From a virus, in the IMG/VR virus record IMGVR_UViG_3300042914_002485, positions 1 to 21,561 of that record: 21,561 bases of DNA; one strand, given 5' to 3'. This document shows, one piece after another, positions 2,493-19,724 of the stretch. The notes below the pieces were generated by a model that did no database searches, was not told where the DNA came from, and was given only the letters and a program-made list of their open reading frames with translations. The position numbers and the translations under genes are program-made. Numbering within the stretch: the first letter of the stretch is position 1; the number at the start of each line of letters is the position of its first letter.

Positions 2493-3446
2493 ATGAAAAC
2501 AAATCAGACAGGCTACGAGATCACAGAAACTGGGCTGGTCGTTCACGACGGGTGGACTTCCGAGCTGTGGGAGGCTGCGGGCCACGAGATCGCCCGCTAC
2601 CAAAAGGGTCTGATGTGGCTGATCGGCGACTGGCTAAACGCCGGCGACCGCGAGGGCTACGTCGAGCGTGGAAAGCTCGACCAGGCCTGCGAGCGGTTCG
2701 GGATTGCTTACGGCACCGCGAAGAACGCGGCACTTGTCTCGGCAGCGTTTGAGGAAAGGTCACGACGAAGTGACCTTTTGGACTTCGCCCACCACCAGGC
2801 CGTAGCCAACAACCCGCAGGCCGACTACCTGCTCGCGTGGGCCGAGGACGAAGGGGCGACGGTCAAACAACTCCGTCAGCGCGTTCGCGAGATCAAGGCA
2901 GCCGACGCCCCGCCGCTCCCGGAAGGCGTCTACCGCGTGATCTATGCCGACCCACCTTGGGAGTACGGTGACAAGCGGACGAACGACGAGCAGTCGGGGT
3001 CGGCCGAGTCGCAGTATCCGACGATGCCGATCGACGCGATCTGCGGCCTGCCGATCCGCGAGATGGCCGCGACAGATTCCGTTCTGTTCCTGTGGGCTAC
3101 CGCTCCGCTCCTTGTCGAGGCCGTCCGCGTGGTCGAGGCCTGGGGATTCACATACAAGGCCCAGTTCGTCTGGGACAAGGTGAAGGGATTCAACGGCCAC
3201 TACAACGACGTTCGCCACGAGCTGCTCCTGGTGGCGACTCGCGGATCCTGTGTTCCGGCCGTCGATTCTCTGGATCCGAGCATCGTCCAGGAAAAGAGGA
3301 CGAAGCACTCGCGAAAGCCGGACTGTTTCTACGAGCTGATCGAGAGGCTTTACCCGGTCGGAGAAGAGACGCACGTCGAGATTTTCGCGAGGCGGTCTCG
3401 CGACGGGTGGAAGTCTTGGGGGAATCAAGTCGATGCCACTCCATGA
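2493..3446 (+). CDS. MT-A70-family adenine-N6 DNA methyltransferase
   Basis: A 317-residue protein of two parts. Residues 145-317 are an MT-A70 methyltransferase: VYRVIYADPPWEYGD holds the catalytic DPPW at 153-156, followed by the family-typical substrate and SAM segments (DSVLFLWATAPLLVEAVRVVEAWGFTYKAQFVWDKVKG, GHYNDVRHELLLVATRG) and the terminal RKPDCFYELIERLYP. It should transfer a methyl group from SAM to adenine N6 in DNA; target unknown. Residues 20-135 form a helical domain (QKGLMWLIGDWLNAGDREGYVERGKLDQACERFGIAYGTAKNAALVSAAF) resembling a DNA-binding module. ATG 2493 lies two bases after the previous stop. Its last 14 bases overlap a putative nuclease-like gene. Phages use such enzymes for protection from host restriction or for regulating packaging and replication; which applies here is unknown. 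Confidence 0.88.
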   Translation: MKTNQTGYEITETGLVVHDGWTSELWEAAGHEIARYQKGLMWLIGDWLNAGDREGYVERGKLDQACERFGIAYGTAKNAALVSAAFEERSRRSDLLDFAHHQAVANNPQADYLLAWAEDEGATVKQLRQRVREIKAADAPPLPEGVYRVIYADPPWEYGDKRTNDEQSGSAESQYPTMPIDAICGLPIREMAATDSVLFLWATAPLLVEAVRVVEAWGFTYKAQFVWDKVKGFNGHYNDVRHELLLVATRGSCVPAVDSLDPSIVQEKRTKHSRKPDCFYELIERLYPVGEETHVEIFARRSRDGWKSWGNQVDATP

Positions 3447-7299: not shown

Positions 7300-7620
7300 A
7301 TGGCTACCGTATCCGCAACGCCCGGCACGCTGAACATCATCGTGAAGCAAGGCCAGGCCGTGTCGCAGCTCTTGGACTTCTCGATCTCGCTCACCGGCTA
7401 CACGTTCTCGGCCGAGATCGTGTCGGCCGTGACGTTCTCGACCGTCCAGGCCCTGACGGTGTCGACGGTGAACCTCGCGACCGGTCAGGTGAACGTCGGA
7501 CTGTCGGCCGCTAACGCGGCGAACGTCGCGGCCGGGACGTACCTGTGGCGTCTCGTCTGGACGCCGGCCGCGGGCAACGCCCAGACGGCCCTCGAGGGGA
7601 TCTGGGAGGTCGTCCGCTGA
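7300..7620 (+). CDS. Beta-sandwich baseplate/fibre-associated protein (BppU N-terminal-like)
   Basis: A 106-residue, Thr/Val/Ser-rich, all-beta protein: [33 protein letters not shown], then [51 protein letters not shown]. The pattern 'KQG ... DFSI.LTGYTF.AEI ... G.V.V.LS ... GTY.W.L ... L.G.W.V' resembles small immunoglobulin-like proteins found beside tail fibres and baseplate genes in many phages (BppU N-terminal style). Its stop TGA overlaps the ATG of the collagen-like fibre gene, supporting a partnership in the adsorption apparatus. It starts 10 bases after the HTH gene. Likely a virion component. Confidence 0.65.
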
Positions 7621-9143
7621 TGCCGATCGAAGTAAACGTCACCGATCAGAACGTCCAGGTCTCCACCAGCGGCCAGACAGTGAACGCGTCGGTCTCTGGC
7701 GGCGTCGGGCCTGCGGGTCCGACCGGGGCCACCGGCGCGACTGGAGCGACGGGGCCGGCCGGGGCGACCGGGCCTGCGGGGGCCACGGGATCGCCTGGGG
7801 CCACAGGGGCCACAGGGGCCACAGGGGCCACAGGGGCCACGGGTCCGGCCGGGACGACGACCTGGGCCGGGATCACCGACAAGCCCGCGACGTTCGCGCC
7901 GTCGACCCACGCGTCGAGCCATGCCTCGGCCGGGTCCGACCCGATCACGGTCGGCACGGTGTCGGGGCGGATAGTCACGACGACGACCGGCGGAAAACTT
8001 TCGACCGGCACGATAGCGGACGTGGTTTCCGGACAGGCCGTCGCACCTTCGGCGGTGACGGTATCGCCGCCAAACGTAGCCGCTGGAAACTTTCCGGCGG
8101 ACTTGATTCCGTTTTCGATCACATACGACGCCGCCTCGGTTTTTACGGTAAACGCTCTCGGCGACGTGCAGACGCCAGGAGTGATCGAAGCCGCAGCTTT
8201 TAGTGGGGCTGTGGACGCGACAAATCTCACCGGCACGATCCCGACCGCTCGCCTGGCATCCGGCACGGCCTCGGCTTCGACCTACCTCCGCGGCGATCAA
8301 GTGTGGTCGCAATTCGACTTTCTTCCAGGACTTGACGACGCCGCCGACTGGAAGGCTCGTGTAACTGCGGCCGGCGGAAGTGTTTCAGATTCGACATACG
8401 CAGCGGTTCAGCGATTCTGCGTGTCGATTTCATCGTCCGGCCTTCGGACGAAAATGTATCGGCTTAACCTTTTCTGCGGCTCCAGCCTGACGAGTGCGCT
8501 CGTTCCGCTGTATCGAGGGCCGACTTTGTCTGGGACACAATTTGGGAATGCAACGGACACGAACGTCGGATTCGTAAGCGGAAACTACACCGAGACAGGC
8601 ACGGGCGGAGGACTGCTAGGTGACGGGTCTAGTAAATATCTAAACACCGGGTTCGCCGCTAACGCTTTGCCAGATATTGGAAACCGACACCTAGCGGCGT
8701 ATATCAGGTCTTACTCGACAGGTAACTACAAGGTAAGAATCGGAACGCGAGATACTGGCGACACGAAATGGTTCACGCTGTGGAAGGGGATAACGCAAGG
8801 ATTCTCGGCGAAAGACGTTCCTTTTTTCGCGTCTTTCACAAGCACCAGAACGGGCGGGTTTCTTGTTGGAACAATGGACGCTCCAGCGTCCGGACACTCA
8901 ATCTACGAAGACGACGCTCTCCAGAATACCGCGACTTCTGGGGCTAACATCACGACCGTATCGTCTAAAAGTCTGTATGTTTTTGCGCTGAACGACTACA
9001 GCCCGTCGAGCGGGTCGGCGTCTACATTCACGGATGAGCGCATGCAGGGCTACTCGATCGGACTCAATCTGACGGCTGGTCAAGTCGCGGCCTACTCCGG
9101 AATCATGCGAGCGTTTCAGGCTTCGCTCGGGAGAAATGTGTGA
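7620..9143 (+). CDS. Tail fibre with collagen-like repeats
   Basis: A 507-residue protein starting at ATG 7620, overlapping the previous stop. After a short beta N-terminus ([28 protein letters not shown]), residues about 31-80 are G-x-y triplets ([19 protein letters not shown] ...), a collagen-like trimeric rod. [30 protein letters not shown] and [28 protein letters not shown] are typical fibre shaft and connector motifs. The C-terminal half (about 235-507: [22 protein letters not shown] ... LNLFCGS ... [15 protein letters not shown] ... [27 protein letters not shown]) looks like a beta-sandwich lectin-like head domain. From about 8400 on, base composition is clearly less GC-rich than in the rest of the structural genes, a sign of exchange of the receptor-binding end. 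Role: host recognition. Confidence 0.82.
7797..7841 (+). repeat. Five tandem copies of a 9-bp collagen-coding unit
   Basis: GGGGCCACA is repeated without change at 7797, 7806, 7815 and 7824, and the fifth copy at 7833 differs only in its last base. Each copy encodes a GAT triplet. Perfect identity at third positions in a region where other GxT codons vary points to recent slippage expansion, so the length of the fibre rod may differ between relatives. Confidence 0.9.
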
Positions 9144-9685: not shown

Positions 9686-9978
9686 CGCAACGCGTCGAAC
9701 GCTGGCAGCCTCCGCGTATGCGTCGCACAACCGCGACGAAGGAGGTCGCCCACTATCGGACCGCCGACTGGAAGGCTCGCCGGCTGCGAATCCTGCGGAG
9801 GGACGCCTTCGTGTGTCGTGCCTGCTCTCGCGTGGTCTACGGCCAGGCCGCCCACGTCGACCACATCCAGCCCCTCGAGGAAGGCGGGACTGACGAGGAC
9901 AAGAACCTACAGACCCTGTGCCAGTCATGCCACGGGACGAAGACCAGGGAAGAGCAGCGGAGGCGAGGCAGGCTGTGA
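9682..9978 (+). CDS. HNH endonuclease of the packaging cluster
   Basis: A 98-residue HNH nuclease. C45-x2-C48 (FVCRACS) and C80-x2-C83 (LCQSCHGTK) bind the structural zinc; HVDHIQPLEEGGTDEDKNLQTLCQSCH supplies D60-H61, N75 and H84 of the beta-beta-alpha-metal site. GTG 9682 overlaps the previous stop (GTGA) and gives the 98-residue form; ATG 9718 is a possible alternative start. HNH proteins encoded just before the terminase genes are known in several HK97-like phages to work with terminase in cutting concatemeric DNA at cos sites. The gene order here fits that role rather than a homing endonuclease. Confidence 0.85.
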   Translation: MTQRVERWQPPRMRRTTATKEVAHYRTADWKARRLRILRRDAFVCRACSRVVYGQAAHVDHIQPLEEGGTDEDKNLQTLCQSCHGTKTREEQRRRGRL

Positions 9979-10442
9979 TTCACATCGTCACCGGCCATAT
10001 CTGCTCGGGGAAGACGACGTTCGTCCGCGAGCACGCGAGACGCGGCGACGTGATCATTGATATGGATCTCCTGGCCCATGCCATGACGACCGACGACATC
10101 GCGGACCACGACTACCCCGACCACGTCGGCGAGATCGCGAGGGCCGCTCGCTGGCACGCGATCGACGCTGCGGTCCGCCTTCACACCTCGGGGACGTTCG
10201 ACGTGTGGATCGTCCACGCGTATCCCGAGGCACGCGATTACGTCACCTACAGACGCATGGCAGCCACATGGCACGAGATCGAGGCGGAGCATGGCACGCT
10301 CCGTGATCGGGCCACACGCGAGCGGCCAGAGCGGTTCCGTCGCGTCCTCGAGGCCCGGATGGCCGAGGGGGTGGGGTCGGCCGCGGGGCCAAAAAAGGAC
10401 GGAAGACCCCACGAGCCCTCGACGCGAATATTTGGGGAGTAA
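9975..10442 (+). CDS. P-loop NTPase / kinase-like protein
   Basis: A 155-residue protein. The N-terminus MIHIVTGHICSGKTTFVREHARRGDVIIDMDLLAHAM carries Walker A G7-H-I-C-S-G-K-T14 right after the first beta strand and a D29-x-D31 after the second, the layout of small AAA_33/zeta-like kinases. DVWIVHAYPEARDYVTYRRM (about 76-95) is the third strand and following helix; R-rich ATRERPERFRRVLEARM may be the lid or arginine segment. Start GTG 9975 overlaps the HNH stop (GTGA). Short P-loop proteins next to HNH and terminase genes occur in other phages, perhaps nucleic-acid or nucleotide kinases aiding packaging or DNA end repair; the substrate cannot be read. Confidence 0.7.
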   Translation: MIHIVTGHICSGKTTFVREHARRGDVIIDMDLLAHAMTTDDIADHDYPDHVGEIARAARWHAIDAAVRLHTSGTFDVWIVHAYPEARDYVTYRRMAATWHEIEAEHGTLRDRATRERPERFRRVLEARMAEGVGSAAGPKKDGRPHEPSTRIFGE

Positions 10443-10448
10443 CAAAAA

Positions 10449-10931
10449 ATGGGAAGTAGAGGTCCGGCCCCGCAGCCCGGCAGCTCCGAGAGCAAACGCG
10501 GCCGAAACACGATGTACCGGAAGACTCCCGCCGTCGTGCCGGCCGGAGGCGTCGCCGTCCCCGCGAGCGTGCAGCTCGTGCCGGCGGCCGCCGCGTTCTG
10601 GGACCGCGTCGCCCCGACGCTGATCGCCGACGGCCGACTCGTCCCCGAGCAGGCCGACGCGTTCGCGATCCTGTGCCGGCTCCACTCCGAGATCCGACTC
10701 CTCGAGGACCAGGTCCTGGCCGAGGGCTTCGTGACCGCGACCGACAAGGGCCAGGCCGCGAGCCCCGTGGCGAAACTGCTCCGTGACTCGCGCCGCGACT
10801 TCGTCACACTGGCGAGGGACTTCGGACTGACGGCAGCCGCTGCCGCCCGTATCCCGCAGGACCCCAAGAATGGCGAAGAAGAAGACGACCCCGAAGCCGC
10901 GATCCTCGCGAAGCTCTCCGTCCGCGGGTAA
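10449..10931 (+). CDS. terS: Terminase small subunit, P27 family-like
   Basis: A 160-residue protein beginning MGSRGPAPQPGSSESKRG, the basic 'GxRGPxP' start characteristic of P27/phage_terS_P27 proteins, followed by helices (PAAAAFWDRVAPTLIADGRLVPEQADAFAILCRLHSEIRLLEDQVLAEGFVT) and KGQAASPVAKLLRDSRRDFVTLARDFGLTAAAAARI, the usual C-terminal core. It recognises viral DNA and recruits the large subunit. GGGGAG lies about ten bases before ATG 10449. Its last 62 bases overlap the large-subunit gene in another frame, a longer overlap than elsewhere in the window, so the acidic C-tail (EEEDDPEAAILAKL) is encoded over the large subunit's basic N-tail. Confidence 0.82.
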   Translation: MGSRGPAPQPGSSESKRGRNTMYRKTPAVVPAGGVAVPASVQLVPAAAAFWDRVAPTLIADGRLVPEQADAFAILCRLHSEIRLLEDQVLAEGFVTATDKGQAASPVAKLLRDSRRDFVTLARDFGLTAAAAARIPQDPKNGEEEDDPEAAILAKLSVRG

Positions 10932-12516
10932 ACCGCTCGACCCGAAGAAGCGGCCGGAGTATCTGCCGGGCTACAAGTGGGACGAGGACGCGGCCCAGGC
11001 CCCGGTCGACTTCGTCCAGGGGCTGTGTCGACACCCAGACGAACGCGGCGGAGATCCGAAGCGGATCGAGCTGATCGAGTGGCAGGCCGAGAAGGTCCTT
11101 CGTCCGCTCTTCGGCTGGCGTCGCCCCGACGGACGCCTCCGGTTCCGTCGCGCCGGGATCTTCGTCCCGAAGAAGAACCGAAAGTCGAGCCTGATGTCGC
11201 AGCTCGCCCAGTACATGGCGACTTGTCACGCTCCGGCCCAGGACGTGTTCCTCGCGGCGAACGACCGCCTCCAGGCTCGGACGATGTATCGCATGGTCCG
11301 GCAGTCGGTCGAGGCGAGCCCGCAGCTATCGAAGCGGCTCGAGGTCGTCGACTCGCGGAGCATCATCCGGAACCGCGAGACCGGGAAGGAGATCCGCTGT
11401 CTGTCCTCCGACTCGTGGCGGAATGAAGGCCTAAACGGCTCGGTGATCCTGGACGAGATCCATAGTTTCCGATCGCCCGACCTGGTCGACGCGTTGATCT
11501 ACGCGACCCGTGGCACGGCGAACGGTCTCGTGATCTCGATCTCCACGGCGGGCTCCGATCGAAACGGGATCGGCTGGCGTTGGTGGCAGGACTGCGAGCT
11601 GGTGATCAAGGATCCGAAGGCGAACCCGACCTTCTACGGTCTGATCTACGCGGCCGACGAGGACGACGACTTCTCCGACCCGAAGGTCTGGCGGAAGGCG
11701 AACCCTTCGATGGGGATCGCGTTCCCCGAGGACGAGTTCGCGGCCGACTACCAGGACGCACAGACCGACCCGCGGAAGATGTCGAAGTTCCTCCGCTACT
11801 CGCTGAACGTCTGGCAGGCCGGCGACTCGCGCTGGTTCGTCCCTCCGCTCGACTGGTCGGCCTGCTCCGCCGGTCCGCTCGATCCGACCGAGGGCCGGCC
11901 GTGCTGGGTCGGCGTCGACCTGGCGTCTAATCTCGACATGACGGCGGCCGCGTTCGTGTTCAAGGAGTCGGACGGCTCCTATTCGGTCGAGTGGCGCTAC
12001 TGGGTCCCACGCGAGACCGTGGCCGACCGCGTCCGCGAAGGGATCCCATACGACTCCTGGATCCGCGACGGCTGGGTGACCGTCACCGACGGACACCGGC
12101 TCGATCACGAGAGCGTCGCTCGCGACATCATCGCGTATGGAGAGACCCACGAGATCAAGGCCGTGGGCTGCGACCCCTGGCAGGCCGGAGCCCTGGAGAC
12201 GCTGCTCCAGCGTGAAGGGATCACGACGAAGGACATAGCGCAGCGGACCGCGACGCTCAACTCGCCATGTAAACTCCTCGAGGCCCTGGTCGTCGAGAAG
12301 CGGCTCCGCACGGGCGGGAATCCGGTCGCCCAGTGGAACGCGAACAATGTGTGCGTCTACACCGACCCCACCGGGATGATCAAGCCCGACAAGGCGAAGA
12401 GTACGGAGAAGATCGACGGCGTCGCGGCTCTCGTGAATGCCCTCGCTCTCGCGTCCACCGACGAGGACACGGGGACCGGCCGGAGCCTCGACGAGTGGCG
12501 GATCCGCGTCCTGTAG
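10870..12516 (+). CDS. terL: Terminase large subunit (HK97/P27-partner type)
   Basis: A 548-residue packaging motor. The ATPase domain has a degenerate Walker A FVPKKNRKSSLMS (P-loop 100-107, K105), and Walker B SVILDE with D195/E196, then STAGSD (226-230) as the coupling motif. The nuclease domain shows CWVGVDLASNLDMTA with metal ligand D350, and EKIDGVAALVNALALA with D516, plus WYVP-type linker sequences. These are the RNase H-like sites that cut concatemers. The first 30 residues are Lys/Ser/Pro-rich and disordered. Length and motifs fit the Terminase_1 family. The gene ends at 12516, and a 61-base non-coding gap precedes the portal gene. Confidence 0.93.
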   Translation: MAKKKTTPKPRSSRSSPSAGKPLDPKKRPEYLPGYKWDEDAAQAPVDFVQGLCRHPDERGGDPKRIELIEWQAEKVLRPLFGWRRPDGRLRFRRAGIFVPKKNRKSSLMSQLAQYMATCHAPAQDVFLAANDRLQARTMYRMVRQSVEASPQLSKRLEVVDSRSIIRNRETGKEIRCLSSDSWRNEGLNGSVILDEIHSFRSPDLVDALIYATRGTANGLVISISTAGSDRNGIGWRWWQDCELVIKDPKANPTFYGLIYAADEDDDFSDPKVWRKANPSMGIAFPEDEFAADYQDAQTDPRKMSKFLRYSLNVWQAGDSRWFVPPLDWSACSAGPLDPTEGRPCWVGVDLASNLDMTAAAFVFKESDGSYSVEWRYWVPRETVADRVREGIPYDSWIRDGWVTVTDGHRLDHESVARDIIAYGETHEIKAVGCDPWQAGALETLLQREGITTKDIAQRTATLNSPCKLLEALVVEKRLRTGGNPVAQWNANNVCVYTDPTGMIKPDKAKSTEKIDGVAALVNALALASTDEDTGTGRSLDEWRIRVL

Positions 12517-12550
12517 CGAGATTCTGCCCGGCAGGCCGCTGGGATATTGG
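12516..12550 (+). promoter_or_regulatory. Intergenic element, copy 1 (before portal)
   Basis: GCGAGATTCTGCC at 12516-12528 is identical to 18425-18437 before the major capsid gene. Both are followed by a similar CGGC(A)GGCC block and by ATAT (12544-12547 here; 18451-18454 there). It begins on the last base of the TerL stop. TTCTGC and TATTGG, 17 bases apart, could be read as a very weak -35/-10 pair, but the match to sigma70 consensus is poor. CTGC-CCG-GCAG can form a small stem here. Possible late promoter or RNA processing/leader element. Confidence 0.4.
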
Positions 12551-12577
12551 CGGGCACCGTCCACGAGGTCGCCGCCC

Positions 12578-14167
12578 GTGCCCGAAAAGAAGCCCAGCCG
12601 CAAGCCGACCGCCAATGGAGGCCGCGGCAGCCGCCGCCGCTCCCCGGCGAAGGCCGCCGCGGCCGCTCGCGTTATCTCGTTTCGGTCGACCTCGCTCGGG
12701 TCGCCCTACGCGTTCGGAGCGATCTCTCCGGGGAACATCGGACCCGAGACCGCGATCCGCGTCTCCTCGATTTTCGGGGTCGTGCGCTGGATCGCTCAGG
12801 CCGTCGCGATCTGCCCTGTGCAGATCATGCGGCAGCGGCCCGACGGACGCCGCGAGAAGGCCGACATCCCGGCCGCCTACACGCTCCGCAAGCGGCCAAA
12901 CCGCTGGCAGTCGGCGTTCGACTTCTACCTGCTGCAAGCCTACTGGGCGGCCCTCCACGGGAACGGCTACGCGAGGATTCTCTCCGGCGACCGCGGCTGG
13001 ATGTCGCAGCTCGTGCCCATGCACCCGTCGCGGGTGAAGGTCGAGCAGCTCGACGACTACTCGCTGTCTTACAAGTTCTGGACGGACCGCGGAGTGTGGG
13101 AGACGATCCCACAGGAGCAGGTCCTTCACTGGAAGTGGATCAGCGACAACGGAATCGTCGGGCACGCTCCGGCCGAGATGTGCGCGACCTCGATCCGCCT
13201 GGCTCAGAAGCTCGACACCGCGGCGACCGCGTTCTGGGACAACTCCGCCCGGCCCGACATGGTCCTCGAGACCGACGAGCGAATCCCCGACGAAGCGGTC
13301 GACGCTCTTCGCGAGTCGCTCCACCAGGTCTACGGCGGAGCCGAGAACCGCGGGAAGGCCGCCGTCCTCCCGAAGAAAACGCGACTGAAGCCGATCGACT
13401 CAAACTCGATGGAGGCGTCGCAGTTCCAGGAGCTGCGAGACGCGATCCTGCCGGACGTGTGCCGTCACTGGGGAGTCCCTTCGACGCTCCTCGGTGACGC
13501 GAAGATGAACAAGTACAGCACGGTCGAGCAGGAGCACCTATCCGCCCAGGTCTGGTGCCTCCTGCCCTGGGCTCGCCGCATGGAGTCGCCGATCGACATG
13601 GCGCTGCAGCCGGTCTACGGCGAGGACGTATACGCGAAGCTCGACACGCGAGGGATCCTCCGGGCCGACACGGCTGGCCGGGCTGCCCTGTATCAAACGC
13701 TCTGGAACCTCGGAGCAATCACGCCGAACGAGATAAGAGACAGGGAAGACTTCGAGCTGCTCGACACCGAGGCCGCGAACCAGACCTACATCCAACTCGG
13801 GTTCTCAACGCTCGACGCCGCGGCCGCCCAGGCCGGGGCCGCCGGGGGCGAGCCGCTGCCGCCCGCCGCCGAGGACTCGCCGGACGATCAGTCGTCCGAA
13901 GGCGAGAGCGTCGACCAGGCCGGCGGGTTCGCTCTCGGCCAGTACGTCTACTTCGACGGCGGCGAGGGAACGATCGAGCACTTGATGACCGACGGCGTCC
14001 TCGGTGTCGAAGGGTCGCCCTTCGCGATCTCCGCGTCGCCCGACTCGCCGGCCGCCTCGGTTCGCATTCACGACGGCGGGCAGGCGACCGAGTTCACGGT
14101 CGGGAAGCGAGTCTCGGACCTGTCGGCGGATCCCATGGACGGAGGCGAGAACGATGTCGCAAGTTGA
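12578..14167 (+). CDS. Portal protein (HK97 family) with extra C-terminal domain
   Basis: A 529-residue protein from GTG 12578 (GAGG about ten bases upstream; starts further upstream would overlap TerL and give low-complexity sequence). The basic N-tail PEKKPSRKPTANGGRGSRRR is followed by the HK97 portal core: SIFGVVRWIAQAVAICPVQIM, LRKRPNRWQSAFDFYLLQAYWAALHGNGYARI, LVPMHPSRVKV, VLHWKWISDNGIVGHAP, ILPDVCRHWGVPSTLLGD and YSTVEQEHLSAQVWCLLPWARRMESPIDMAL. It forms the dodecameric DNA gate at one head vertex. Residues about 449-515 (FALGQYVYFDGGEGTIEHLMTDGVLGVEG ... ASVRIHDGGQATEFTVGKRVSDL) add a small beta-barrel-like domain after an acidic linker, beyond the usual ~400-residue family length. 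The 3' end overlaps the protease gene by 14 bases. Confidence 0.9.
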   Translation: MPEKKPSRKPTANGGRGSRRRSPAKAAAAARVISFRSTSLGSPYAFGAISPGNIGPETAIRVSSIFGVVRWIAQAVAICPVQIMRQRPDGRREKADIPAAYTLRKRPNRWQSAFDFYLLQAYWAALHGNGYARILSGDRGWMSQLVPMHPSRVKVEQLDDYSLSYKFWTDRGVWETIPQEQVLHWKWISDNGIVGHAPAEMCATSIRLAQKLDTAATAFWDNSARPDMVLETDERIPDEAVDALRESLHQVYGGAENRGKAAVLPKKTRLKPIDSNSMEASQFQELRDAILPDVCRHWGVPSTLLGDAKMNKYSTVEQEHLSAQVWCLLPWARRMESPIDMALQPVYGEDVYAKLDTRGILRADTAGRAALYQTLWNLGAITPNEIRDREDFELLDTEAANQTYIQLGFSTLDAAAAQAGAAGGEPLPPAAEDSPDDQSSEGESVDQAGGFALGQYVYFDGGEGTIEHLMTDGVLGVEGSPFAISASPDSPAASVRIHDGGQATEFTVGKRVSDLSADPMDGGENDVAS

Positions 14168-15137
14168 GACCCGCTATCTGGCCCAGGCTGGCGACCCGGA
14201 CATCGAGCTGCGGCTGGAGACCCGCGACGACGGCCGGCCGCAGATCGTCGGCATGGCCCCGCCATGGAACAAGTGGTCGGTGGACCTGGGCGGATTCAAG
14301 GAACGCTTCATGCCTGGAGCGTTCCGGAAGTGGCTCGACCGCTCGCCGAACGATCCGCGAGGCGCTGCTGACGTGGTCGCGAAATACAACCACATGGACT
14401 CCGCCGTCCTCGGCCGGACGACGAATGGCACGCTCCAGATCCAAGAGAACGAGAAGGGGCTCGTGTTCCGGGCGACCCCTCCGGTCGGCACGCCGACGAC
14501 TGCCGAGGTCCTGCCTCTGATCAGGGAAGGCTATATCTTCGGCTCGTCCTTCGCGTTCTCGCTGCCCGATCCTCGAGGCGAGACCTGGGACGAGGATCCC
14601 GCCGGCAACGTGACGCGGACGATCACCGACGCGGCGATCTTTGACGTGTCGCCGGTGACCCACGCCGCGTATCCGAACAGTTCCGTCGGCCTTCGGTCCC
14701 TGTCGGCCTGGCGCGAAGCCCGAGGGCTCGTCCACCACAGGGCCGAGGGCCGCGGGCTCGTGATCTCGCTCGACTACGACAGGACCTACACCGCGGCCCC
14801 TGGCCTCTGGCGTTCGTTCGTCAACATGGCGACGGCCGCCGGGAACCGCGTCGTATGTATCTCGCGACGCGAGGCGACCGACGAAAACCGCGAGGAGCTG
14901 CGGCTGGCGTTCGCGGACCTCGAGGTCGGCGACCTGATCCTGTGCGGGACCGACACCCAGAAGCGCGACGCGGCCGCCCAGGCTGGGATCGCGGTCGACG
15001 TGTGGGTCGACGACTACCCCGAGGGAATCGTGGCGGCCCCGGCTCCGGCGGCTCGCTCGTTCAAGGTCTCGACGCTCGCGGGATCAAAGGCTGCCGCCGC
15101 GGCCGCCGTCGCCCGAATGCGAATCAACGCCGGCTAA
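14154..15137 (+). CDS. Prohead protease fused to a HAD-superfamily phosphatase-like domain
   Basis: A 327-residue two-domain protein. Residues 1-185 are an HK97-type prohead protease (peptidase U35): GMAPPWNKWSVDLGGFKERFMPGAF, KYNH with catalytic His80, GSSFAF with Ser132, and AIFDVSPVTHAAYPNSSVGLR, where D164 occupies the usual Glu/Asp position. Residues about 200-295 carry all four HAD motifs: GLVISLDYDRT (D207, D209, T211), VVCIS (S237), K270 in DTQKRDAA, and VDVWVDD (D286, D287). Such domains hydrolyse phosphate esters through an aspartyl phosphate. The reading frame is continuous. GTG 14760 (V203) with GAGGG ten bases upstream could start a free HAD protein internally. An Ala-rich C-tail (310-320) follows. 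ATG 14154 overlaps the portal end by 14 bases. The HAD substrate cannot be predicted. Confidence 0.85.
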   Translation: MSQVETRYLAQAGDPDIELRLETRDDGRPQIVGMAPPWNKWSVDLGGFKERFMPGAFRKWLDRSPNDPRGAADVVAKYNHMDSAVLGRTTNGTLQIQENEKGLVFRATPPVGTPTTAEVLPLIREGYIFGSSFAFSLPDPRGETWDEDPAGNVTRTITDAAIFDVSPVTHAAYPNSSVGLRSLSAWREARGLVHHRAEGRGLVISLDYDRTYTAAPGLWRSFVNMATAAGNRVVCISRREATDENREELRLAFADLEVGDLILCGTDTQKRDAAAQAGIAVDVWVDDYPEGIVAAPAPAARSFKVSTLAGSKAAAAAAVARMRINAG

Positions 15138-16179: not shown

Positions 16180-16724
16180 TCGTCGCCCTCCTGATCGCTG
16201 CCGCGGCTTATGCGTTCGCCGGCGACAAGTTGAACAAGTACATCGGCGACGTGTCGCTGCCGACCCTGGAACGGCGACACGTCGCCGGGGCTGCCCTGCT
16301 CGCGGCGGCCGCGTTCGCGTGGGGCTCGTCCGCTCCACCGTCCCCGGCTCCGCAGCCGGCCCCCGGCCCGGCCCCAGGCTTTAGCCTCCGCGGGACGTTC
16401 GTCGGCCCCGACGCCGCGGCCGACGCCGCGACCGTGTCGGCCCTAATGGAGGAGCTGGCCTCAGAGATCGAATGGGATTCGATGCAGGCCGAGCCGCTGA
16501 TCCGGACCGGAGTCGCCGTCGACGATCTGCGGCAGCGTGCCCGCGAGCTGCGATGTCGCGGCGTCTCGCTCGGTGAGAAGCATCCGCGAGCACGCGAGGC
16601 GATCAAGTCGCACCTCGACGCGACTGCCGGCACGTCCGGCGGTCCGCTGACGCCGGCCCAGCGGTCCGCGTGGGTCGCGGCCTACCGTGAAATCGCGAGG
16701 GCTGCCGCCGATGCCTCGCGCTAA
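16176..16724 (+). CDS. Two-span membrane protein with periplasmic-type soluble domain
   Basis: A 182-residue protein. Residues 2-15 (IVALLIAAAAYAFA) and 36-50 (VAGAALLAAAAFAWG) are short hydrophobic spans, followed by a Pro/Ala linker (52-68, SAPPSPAPQPAPGPAPG) and a soluble helical domain (about 70-182: TVSALMEELASEIEWDSMQAEPLIRTGVAVDDLRQRARELR ... LTPAQRSAWVAAYREIARAAADASR). A Pro-rich spacer after a membrane anchor is typical of proteins reaching across an envelope layer, so a spanin-like or envelope role is conceivable. It overlaps the cysteine peptidase gene by 14 bases, which suggests joint function. No family recognised. Confidence 0.6.
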   Translation: MIVALLIAAAAYAFAGDKLNKYIGDVSLPTLERRHVAGAALLAAAAFAWGSSAPPSPAPQPAPGPAPGFSLRGTFVGPDAAADAATVSALMEELASEIEWDSMQAEPLIRTGVAVDDLRQRARELRCRGVSLGEKHPRAREAIKSHLDATAGTSGGPLTPAQRSAWVAAYREIARAAADASR

Positions 16725-17841
16725 CGCTCTTCGCTGGCTGGCTGTCGCTCTGCTCTTGGGGCTCGCGGCCGCCGCGATCGTCGCCGGGCTCGACCGCGGC
16801 CCCGGCCCTGCCGGCTGGCCGGGGGACGAAAACTTCGGCTACCGTCCAGACCCGCAAGGCGTCGAGCGATTCCTCGCGGAGCTGCCCCAGCCGCTGTTTC
16901 GCGACGCCGGAGCCGAGACGGTCCGCGAGGCGAAAGGCGTCGACACGTTCCTCTATCGCTCCGCGGCTCGCGCTCACCTGGCTCGCTACGGGAAGCCCTG
17001 GGTCTGCGAACGCCAGGGGATCGGGGATTGTGTTTCCTGGGGCTGGGCTCACGGCGTATGGATCGCCCAGGCCGTCGACTGGGAGACGGGCCGCCTCGCG
17101 GAGCCTCCGTCGTTCCCGAGCACCGAGGCAATCTATGGAGGCTCTCGCGTCGAGGCCCGCGGCCGATCAGGTGACGGCTCGTCGCCGGTCGGCGGCTACT
17201 CCGACGGATCGTATGGGGCCGCGGCCGCTCGGTTCGTCCGCGACTGGGGCGTCGTCTACCGCGAGAAGTTCGACCGCTACGACCTCTCGGCCTACTCCGC
17301 GAACCGAGCGAAGGACTGGGGAGCCTACGGATGTGGCGGCCAAGGAGACGGCGGGAAGCTCGACGCGATCGCGAAGAAGCACCCGGCCGCCCATGTCGCG
17401 CTCGTGACCACCTGGGCCGAGGCTGCCGCCGCGATCGAGGCCGGGTTCCCCGTGCCTGTGGCTTCGATGCAAGGCTTCGCGAGCACGACCAACGCTCAGG
17501 GCTACGCGGCCGCCTCCGGCCAGTGGGCTCACCAGATGTGTTTCGTCGCGGTCCGCTACCAGGCGAACGGATCACCGTCGGACGCTCTCCTGTGTTTGAA
17601 TAGCTGGGGACCCCGATGGATCACCTATCGCGGAAAGTTTCCGGCCGATCAGCCCGACGGCTCGTTCTGGGTGACGCGGCCCGTCGTGGAATCCATGCTC
17701 CGGGCGAAGGACTCATTCGCGGTCGGCTCGGTCAGTGGCTTCGGCTGGCGCGATCTCCATAACGGAAACTGGCTCACGCCGGCCCCGCCCGAAACGATCG
17801 CCGACTGGTTCGCTCCGCACACGTTCACACTCGCCCCGTGA
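16711..17841 (+). CDS. Membrane-anchored papain-like (C1-type) cysteine peptidase
   Basis: A 376-residue protein. Residues 8-27 (RWLAVALLLGLAAAAIVAGL) form a signal anchor or signal peptide. The catalytic domain shows the papain pattern: Q102 (oxyanion hole) and C107 in CERQGIGDCVSWGWAHGV, H274 in GQWAHQMCFVAVRY, and N297 in LLCLNSWGPRW. Between them lie YGGSRVEARGRSGDGSSPVGGYSDGSYGAAAARFVRDWG and AYSANRAKDWG, features of a C1-like family I associate with planctomycete genomes and prophages. It should cleave peptide bonds outside the cytoplasm. No propeptide region is obvious beyond residues 28-95. ATG 16711 is chosen; GTG 16687 would add eight residues. It lies among four other membrane proteins, between protease and capsid genes, an unusual place for a peptidase. 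Confidence 0.82.
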   Translation: MPRANALRWLAVALLLGLAAAAIVAGLDRGPGPAGWPGDENFGYRPDPQGVERFLAELPQPLFRDAGAETVREAKGVDTFLYRSAARAHLARYGKPWVCERQGIGDCVSWGWAHGVWIAQAVDWETGRLAEPPSFPSTEAIYGGSRVEARGRSGDGSSPVGGYSDGSYGAAAARFVRDWGVVYREKFDRYDLSAYSANRAKDWGAYGCGGQGDGGKLDAIAKKHPAAHVALVTTWAEAAAAIEAGFPVPVASMQGFASTTNAQGYAAASGQWAHQMCFVAVRYQANGSPSDALLCLNSWGPRWITYRGKFPADQPDGSFWVTRPVVESMLRAKDSFAVGSVSGFGWRDLHNGNWLTPAPPETIADWFAPHTFTLAP

Positions 17842-18424: not shown

Positions 18425-18457
18425 GCGAGATTCTGCCGCGGCGGCCTCTCATATCGT
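18425..18457 (+). promoter_or_regulatory. Intergenic element, copy 2 (before major capsid gene)
   Basis: Second copy of GCGAGATTCTGCC (18425-18437), followed by CGGCGGCC and ATAT at 18451. It lies in the 98-base gap (18403-18500) between the Cys-rich gene and the capsid gene, 64 bases before the ATG. A promoter giving extra capsid transcript is the natural guess. TTCTGC and TATCGT, 15 bases apart, are a weak sigma70-like pair. The copy before the portal gene argues for a common regulatory function. Confidence 0.45.
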
Positions 18458-18500
18458 GATGTGCGGTAAGGACACCACACGAACACGAAGGGACTCCCCC

Positions 18501-19724
18501 ATGCCGTCGCCACGACTCGCTCGCCTCCAGGACGAAGCCGCCCAGATCGCCACCGAGATCGAGACCCTCCGCTCGGTCGAGCCCTCGAACGACGAGGAGC
18601 GGACCCGGATCGAGGAGCGACTCGCGGGCCTGATCGCGAAGGCCGACATCGTGTCGAAGGACGCCGGCTCGGAGCGTGACCTCGACGAGAAGCTCGCCGG
18701 CCTCCGGAAGGTGACCGGCTCGGCATCGTCGCCGAAGGTTGCCGAGAAGGCTGCCGTCGAAGACTTCCAGGAGCCAGCCGACGTGCGGAGCGGGATCAAG
18801 CTCTTCTCCTCGCGGCGTGCTGCCGAGGCCGTCGGCTCGTACCTGAAGGCCCTCTACACGGGCGAGACCCGAGCGATGGGCGAGACCTCCAGCACCTACG
18901 ACGGGATCGGAGCCGAGTACGTCTATAAGGAGCTGTACGGCGCGATCGTCAACCGGCTCCAGTACGCGTCGGTCGCTCTTCAGCTCGCGACGGTCGTCCG
19001 ACCCCGCGGCCAGAAGATCGACTTCCCGAAGGTCGGCGACGCGACCGCGTCGCTCGTGGCCGAAGGGACCGCGACGACCGATCAGGACCTTGTGTCCTCG
19101 GTCGGTGCCCTGACCATGTACGAGATGCGTGGATCGGTCGCGATCTCGCGAAGCCTGATCGAGGACTCGCCGCTCGACGTGGCCGGCCTCGTGGCCGAGC
19201 GGTTCGCCCTGGCCTACGCTCAGAAGATGGACTCCCTCTGGCTCGCGGGCCAGGCGTCGAACCCGACGATCGGCGGCCTCGCGGCTGGCGTCGCGGCTGG
19301 CAACACGATCACCGTGGCGGCCGGCTCCACGGCGACGAGCCTCGCGAACCTGGCCGACGTGGTCGGTAAGGTCGACGAGGCCGTGATGGGGACCGCCTCG
19401 TGGGTCTGCTCGCGTGCTGGCTGGGTCGACCTGATGAAGATCTGGTCCGCTCAACAGACGACCCTGACGGTCGGCGGCGGCCGGGTCGTGCCGACGATCT
19501 TCGGCGCTCCGGTCTACCTCGTGAAGGGTCTGCCCTCCACGACGCTCGCCCTCTACGGCGACTTCTCGATGTCGACGGTGGTCGGCCTGAAGGACAGCGG
19601 CCTCGAGATCGAAGCGGGCCGCGAGATCCTGATGCGGAACCGCCAGGTGCTCTACGTCGCGAACACCCGGTTCGGTGTGAGCAACCACGCTCCGGAGTTC
19701 GTGGGTCGCCTCGCGAAGGCCTGA
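18501..19724 (+). CDS. Major capsid protein (HK97 fold)
   Basis: A 407-residue protein. Residues 1 to about 100 form the scaffolding-like delta domain: a coiled coil (RLARLQDEAAQIATEIETLRSV ... DEERTRIEERLAGLIAKADIVSK) expected to be removed by the prohead protease encoded upstream. The mature HK97-fold part contains YKELYGAIVNRLQYASVALQLATVVRPRGQKIDFPKVGDATASLVAEGTATTDQDLVSS, TMYEMRGSVAISRSLIEDS (E-loop/P-domain region), ERFALAYAQKMDSLWLAG, GTASWVCSRAGWVDLMKIW, and VPTIFGAPVYLVKGLPSTTLALYGDFS ... FGVSNHAPEFVGRLAKA (A-domain end). ATG 18501 follows AAGGGA; an in-frame upstream ATG at 18456 lacks a ribosome binding site. Preceded by its own intergenic element and followed by a strong hairpin. 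Confidence 0.93.
   Translation: MPSPRLARLQDEAAQIATEIETLRSVEPSNDEERTRIEERLAGLIAKADIVSKDAGSERDLDEKLAGLRKVTGSASSPKVAEKAAVEDFQEPADVRSGIKLFSSRRAAEAVGSYLKALYTGETRAMGETSSTYDGIGAEYVYKELYGAIVNRLQYASVALQLATVVRPRGQKIDFPKVGDATASLVAEGTATTDQDLVSSVGALTMYEMRGSVAISRSLIEDSPLDVAGLVAERFALAYAQKMDSLWLAGQASNPTIGGLAAGVAAGNTITVAAGSTATSLANLADVVGKVDEAVMGTASWVCSRAGWVDLMKIWSAQQTTLTVGGGRVVPTIFGAPVYLVKGLPSTTLALYGDFSMSTVVGLKDSGLEIEAGREILMRNRQVLYVANTRFGVSNHAPEFVGRLAKA

Follow-up and report, generated by a model that had tools for sequence, protein, structure and literature searches.

The prohead protease gene of a virus in IMG/VR (record IMGVR_UViG_3300042914_002485; all 21,561 nucleotides were analysed and are called the window here) was found to encode, in the same open frame, a predicted phosphatase domain of the HAD superfamily, placed after the protease core and ahead of a C-terminal helix that is conserved. 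Comparison with relatives showed that this domain is an optional and swappable cassette, and that the same HAD family is repeatedly associated with head genes in other phages. The reading that we favour, with some reserve, is that the protease carries an active HAD phosphatase as head-loaded cargo that acts on nucleotides or nucleic-acid ends.

An S78 prohead protease and a HAD domain in one open frame

The fusion ORF (P0001, 327 aa) occupies positions 14154..15137 on the plus strand, which also holds the parts of this gene given below and the portal, terminase and capsid genes. Its ATG is preceded by GGAGG and overlaps the 3' end of the portal gene. The S78 (HK97-type) prohead protease domain spans residues 20-180 (14211..14693) and was identified by PF04586 (1e-28; 100.9 bits, cut-off 21), phrog_80 (3e-37), TIGR01543 (score 66.5, cut-off 59) and alignment. 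A preliminary description of this DNA had pointed to H80, S132 and D164 as protease residues; all three were present and were invariant in the alignment of 25 diverse homologues, the catalytic role being the putative assignment of that description. The gene lies between those of the portal (12437..14167; PF04860, 1.7e-76), which bears no HAD domain in the window, and an HK97-fold major capsid protein (18456..19724; PF05065, 1.9e-24), whose N-terminal stretch has by eye a coiled-coil, delta-domain-like look. The terminase large subunit is encoded at 10870..12516 (PF20441, 7e-41; PF03354, 4.5e-16). Both the protease domain and the position between portal and capsid are common to HK97 gp4-type prohead proteases (Peptidase_S78, phrog_80, TIGR01543); unlike these, the window protease has a HAD domain between its core and its C-terminal helix.

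Behind the protease domain, a junction of residues 181-200 (14694..14753) marks the start of the cassette and the place where identity switches in recombined phages. It is followed by the HAD cassette core, residues 201-292 (14754..15029), which was delimited by family matches, residue invariance, AlphaFold2 and Foldseek, and by a conserved tail helix at about residues 303-325 (VSTLAGSKAAAAAAVARMRI; 15060..15128), which was recognised from the alignment, the model and relatives lacking the HAD domain. Both domains were matched by profiles within a single open frame, as the preliminary description had proposed. A sequencing or assembly frameshift joining two genes, which that description had named as the finding that would overturn the fusion, has practically no probability left and was ruled out, since the full fusion with the same uninterrupted frame was present in more than 100 independent IMG/VR contigs from many samples, 50-99% identical to the window. 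These contigs also answered the database search for the same two-domain order that had been suggested as a check. A Planctomycetaceae MAG also has the fusion on one of its contigs, where the gene order (terminase, portal, protease-HAD, capsid) is similar. Among 50,697 named phage records, none had a single joined match extending over 80% or more of the fusion.

The HAD part (residues 199-301) matched phrog_4919 (2e-16) and phrog_4256 (1e-15), both annotated as 'unknown function' and both also matched by all 27 of the diverse cassette members that were searched; Pfam and NCBIfam gave no confident name for it. HAD superfamily enzymes are defined by motif I (DxDxT/V), motif II (S/T), motif III (K/R) and motif IV (DD), and all four are intact in the window as D207xD209xT211, S237, K270 and D286D287. 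In the 243 copies retrieved, which form 27 clusters at 82% identity, D207, D209, T211, K270, D286 and D287 were invariant and position 237 was Ser or Thr; motifs I and IV served partly as search seeds, so the conservation is unbiased for S/T237 and K270 only. Mean identity was higher in the HAD domain (71%) than in the protease domain (57%), and the median dN/dS of the HAD domain, 0.33 (approximate because of saturation), showed purifying selection at the codon level.

The structure prediction that had been suggested as a check was run for the HAD domain alone. The AlphaFold2 model (pLDDT 91.5) showed successive strands that carry the four motifs where they end on the C-terminal side, as is usual for HAD folds, and lacked a cap domain. 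Foldseek searches against the PDB returned high-probability matches that were mostly HADs (KdsC 1k1e, 2pr7, the CopA P-domain and T4 Pnkp), at E values of at least 0.05, which is weak, and with non-HAD Rossmann folds among them. Matches to viral models reached E values of 1e-7 to 5e-6 and included one phage protein named HAD-like. Sequence searches of the PDB, with the single sequence and with a profile, found no HAD match; the best profile match was a designed protein in which no stretch passed alone. The full-length fusion model was of moderate confidence (pLDDT 75.9), placed the tail helix at residues 307-326 and gave no usable Foldseek match. By the model, the domain is a HAD fold with a Rossmann-like core, in agreement with the preliminary description, and given its residues it is probably an active capless phosphatase. 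In four fused ORFs (L122:2655-3734, L124:1999-3078, L125:5344-6423 and L131:1816-2895), the profile search gave two HAD matches each, which may represent one domain split by an insertion.

The phosphatase domain of T4 polynucleotide kinase/phosphatase has the HAD motifs in common with the window domain and was one of the stronger matches in Foldseek (2ia5, probability 0.87-0.92); it differs in that the match has an E value of about 0.1 and 15-18% identity and in that the fusion has no kinase domain. The Swiss-army-knife HAD phosphatases of phage RNA repair (HAD_SAK_2, PF18143) are small and stand alone in phages (PMC7824862). The cassette resembles them as a small HAD of phages, and membership in that family was rejected, as PF18143 matched none of the 27 cassette members and nothing in the genomes of the four phages with stand-alone homologues described below.

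The preliminary description had also suggested that a GTG at 14760..14762 may yield the HAD part alone. This suggestion was not upheld: the codon is GTG, CTG, CTA, GTC or ACG in relatives, and in the window it is probably an ordinary Val203. An internal ATG before the HAD domain of the portal fusions was considered likewise; it occurs in 32 of 47 distinct sequences, with codons that are no starts (CTC, CTA, TTA and others) elsewhere, and was not taken as programmed.

An optional cassette before a conserved tail helix

HAD-less relatives were found by a scan with the protease of a distant relative, L101. Their proteases, which are among L264, L265, L267-L280, L282, L286 and L287, are mostly 82-97% identical to that of L101 (94-97% for those cited here as empty sites), and they retain the same C-terminal tail, ADKRRRWSYALTAAAARLVSARLKSNAPRIK. 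In a DNA alignment of L263, which carries the HAD domain, with L271, which lacks it, both flanks were mostly about 85-95% identical, and the open frames differed in length by 279 bases. No HAD was found elsewhere in six HAD-less contigs (21-37 kb); ten HAD-positive contigs had exactly one each. On the protease tree, the HAD state has to change four times, and two or more of these changes fall on well supported branches. In a related clade, the corresponding tail helix was present with or without the HAD domain.

The domain is also exchanged. The window and L025 share 97% identity in the protease, 58% in the HAD domain and 93% in the tail, whereas the window and L054 share 58% in the protease and 98% in the HAD domain; between L129 and L130, the protease is 56% and the HAD domain 100% identical. 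In these swaps, nucleotide identity changes near residues 175-210, at the domain boundary. Gain, loss and swapping, read from these alignments and trees, thus showed the HAD domain to be a cassette set between the protease core and the C-terminal helix. The preliminary view of the HAD domain as the C-terminal part of the protein was correct in that it follows the protease, and has to be revised in that it precedes a conserved tail helix and is missing from close relatives. The tail helix probably serves the protease itself in assembly, the HAD domain being cargo placed before it.

A HAD domain at this place could instead work in head assembly as a sensor of phosphate or DNA, a binding module or a spacer, with no need for turnover. 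Its location, flanked by the protease core on one side and the conserved tail helix on the other, would suit such a role, and binding modules do exist among HAD-fold domains. We regard this explanation as quite improbable, because the catalytic residues, including the motif III lysine, are invariant in the 243 copies, because close relatives assemble without the domain, and because its exchange for a HAD only 58% identical suggests no tight structural role.

The same HAD family on portals and as separate genes

In about 80 further contigs (L175-L253), a long ORF ends with a C-terminal domain of the same HAD family. All six HAD-bearing long ORFs examined were portals by PF04860 (E 1e-85 to 1e-107). 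The HAD domain of these fusions, for example L176:1741-3591 and L194:4507-6357, is preceded by a Pro/Ala-rich linker, and most of the contigs have a recognisable HAD-less S78 protease downstream. A separate HAD gene was found in the head module of L071-L073 and L143-L146 (e.g. L071:4839-5213, L072:3240-3677 and L145:5815-6306). In L071 and L072, the two contigs in which gene order was read, packaging genes are lambda-type, the free HAD is 55-57% identical to the window's domain, and its gene is flanked by those of a lambda-type portal and of an unrelated protease. The link of the HAD domain to the head that had been suggested for the window is therefore strengthened by the portal fusions and by HAD genes standing between portal and protease.

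The head-linked copies all grouped in one clade of the HAD tree (100/98), within which protease-borne and portal-borne copies formed two separate supported clades, indicating that tethering arose more than once or that the tether was switched. BFVD models A0A6J7WLI9, A0A6J5N6Z6, A0A6J5R419 and others, named XkdF or 'Prohead protease' and derived from uncultured phages, also matched the HAD model, which suggests further independent protease-HAD fusions.

Stand-alone homologues in phrog_4919 and phrog_4256 are gp47 of phiEco32, gp116 of Seunavirus 4MG, CHOED_035 of a Vibrio phage and gp01 of Vibrio phage 1.034.O. These small phage HADs have a homologous domain with the same catalytic motifs as the cassette. 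They differ from it in being separate genes, of which three lie in regions for replication or nucleotide metabolism, and the head-linked copies form a supported clade of their own. The distant stand-alone homologues adjoin genes for MazG, dNMP kinase, DNA polymerase and exonuclease, a context that points to nucleotides or nucleic-acid ends as likely substrates; the fourth, gp01 of 1.034.O, lies upstream of a terminase gene.

Enzymes tethered to head proteins are a known theme. Fusions to MuF or portal have been described for PBECR, 2H, InPase and RelA/SpoT domains (Iyer et al. 2017, PMC5512222), and fusions to MuF, portal and a capsid-processing serine peptidase for NudE-type Nudix domains (Iyer et al. 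2022, PMC9503650), with packaging and injection proposed there for tethered NudE, 2H and InPase. The peptidase fusions of NudE-type Nudix domains (PMC9503650) also make the earlier statement that prohead proteases usually stand alone or are fused to scaffold or capsid too narrow. The present case is like the NudE, 2H and InPase systems in that a small nucleotide-related enzyme domain is fused to a head protein, here the S78 protease and, in relatives, the PF04860 portal. It differs in its cargo, as a HAD fusion to portal or protease is mentioned in neither PMC5512222 nor PMC9503650 in the searched passages, and, compared with the tethered enzymes described in them, in forming a cassette that is removable, has empty sites, is swapped at its boundary and lies before a conserved tail helix. 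The fusion was not reported in the literature searched for a HAD combined with prohead protease, portal or XkdF, nor were the HAD cargo, its insertion before a tail with empty sites and its exchange between proteases.

A proposed role inside the head

S78-type proteases do their work within the procapsid, and the C-termini of portals point into the capsid. The repeated attachment of one enzyme to both proteins makes the capsid interior a likely common destination. What we infer for the HAD domain as head-loaded cargo (its catalysis, packaging, release, injection and substrate) would run as follows. The protease part would carry the fusion into the procapsid, where the HAD domain would be freed by the protease during maturation or left attached, and would stay in the head. 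It could then work on nucleotides or nucleic-acid ends, at the time of packaging or once it has entered the next cell together with the DNA. In other phages, the same placement would be reached through fusion to the portal C-terminus or through a gene between portal and protease.

Head proteases frequently undergo degradation and are able to leave the capsid, and a protease-borne HAD could be released and act in the producing cell only. Fusion might then be a means of co-expression: the HAD domain would be translated late with the protease, cut off by it and work as a soluble nucleotidase, with the virion uninvolved. The self-processing of S78 proteases, the soluble distant homologues in nucleotide-metabolism regions and the stand-alone HAD copies inside head modules all agree with this. 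We nevertheless hold it to be unlikely, since the portal fusions would tether the enzyme to a structural protein, since expression timing alone would not lead one to expect repeated attachment to two different proteins of the procapsid interior, and since a dense operon gives co-expression without any fusion.

The head-loaded cargo reading can be taken further, to a mobile phosphatase cassette that is traded among phages, docked repeatedly on the protease or the portal, depending on which procapsid-interior protein is at hand, and injected against host defences based on nucleotide signals or nucleic-acid damage, the patchiness and swapping reflecting an arms race. This extension is possible but doubtful. 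A PADLOC search matched no defence family.

Several neighbouring genes were recorded. A P-loop kinase-like gene (9918-10442; AAA_33, E 9e-6, just under the cut-off) lies between an HNH endonuclease and the small terminase; it is a possible partner for an end-processing phosphatase and was not seen at the corresponding position of the MAG phage L141. The portal of the window ends in an add-on (13883-14164) related to a segment of L202 (4830-5090; BLASTP 9e-10) that bears PF11160 (Hva1_TUDOR) and is found on some HAD-portals, making it a second add-on domain on portals. An ORF between protease and capsid (16687-17841) had no Pfam match; by eye, its QGIGDCVSWGW and LNSWG motifs have a papain-like look. 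The window also encodes an MT-A70 methyltransferase (2493-3446; PF05063, 5e-26) and a collagen-repeat protein (7545-9143; PF01391, 3e-8) that is probably tail-fibre-like. Both genome-collection matches were Planctomycetota MAGs, and a scan of 392 Planctomycetota genomes found the cassette in one only, the seed itself; the host may be planctomycetal, a tentative assignment.

With the fusion, a predicted HAD phosphatase joins the enzymes that are tethered to head proteins in phages. A natural experiment is provided by near-identical phages that have or lack the HAD domain, by HAD domains swapped between proteases, and by the same family on the protease, on the portal or free; it makes the head-cargo question for tethered enzymes directly testable. 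The cassette site itself is a natural, cargo-tolerating position in a head protease.
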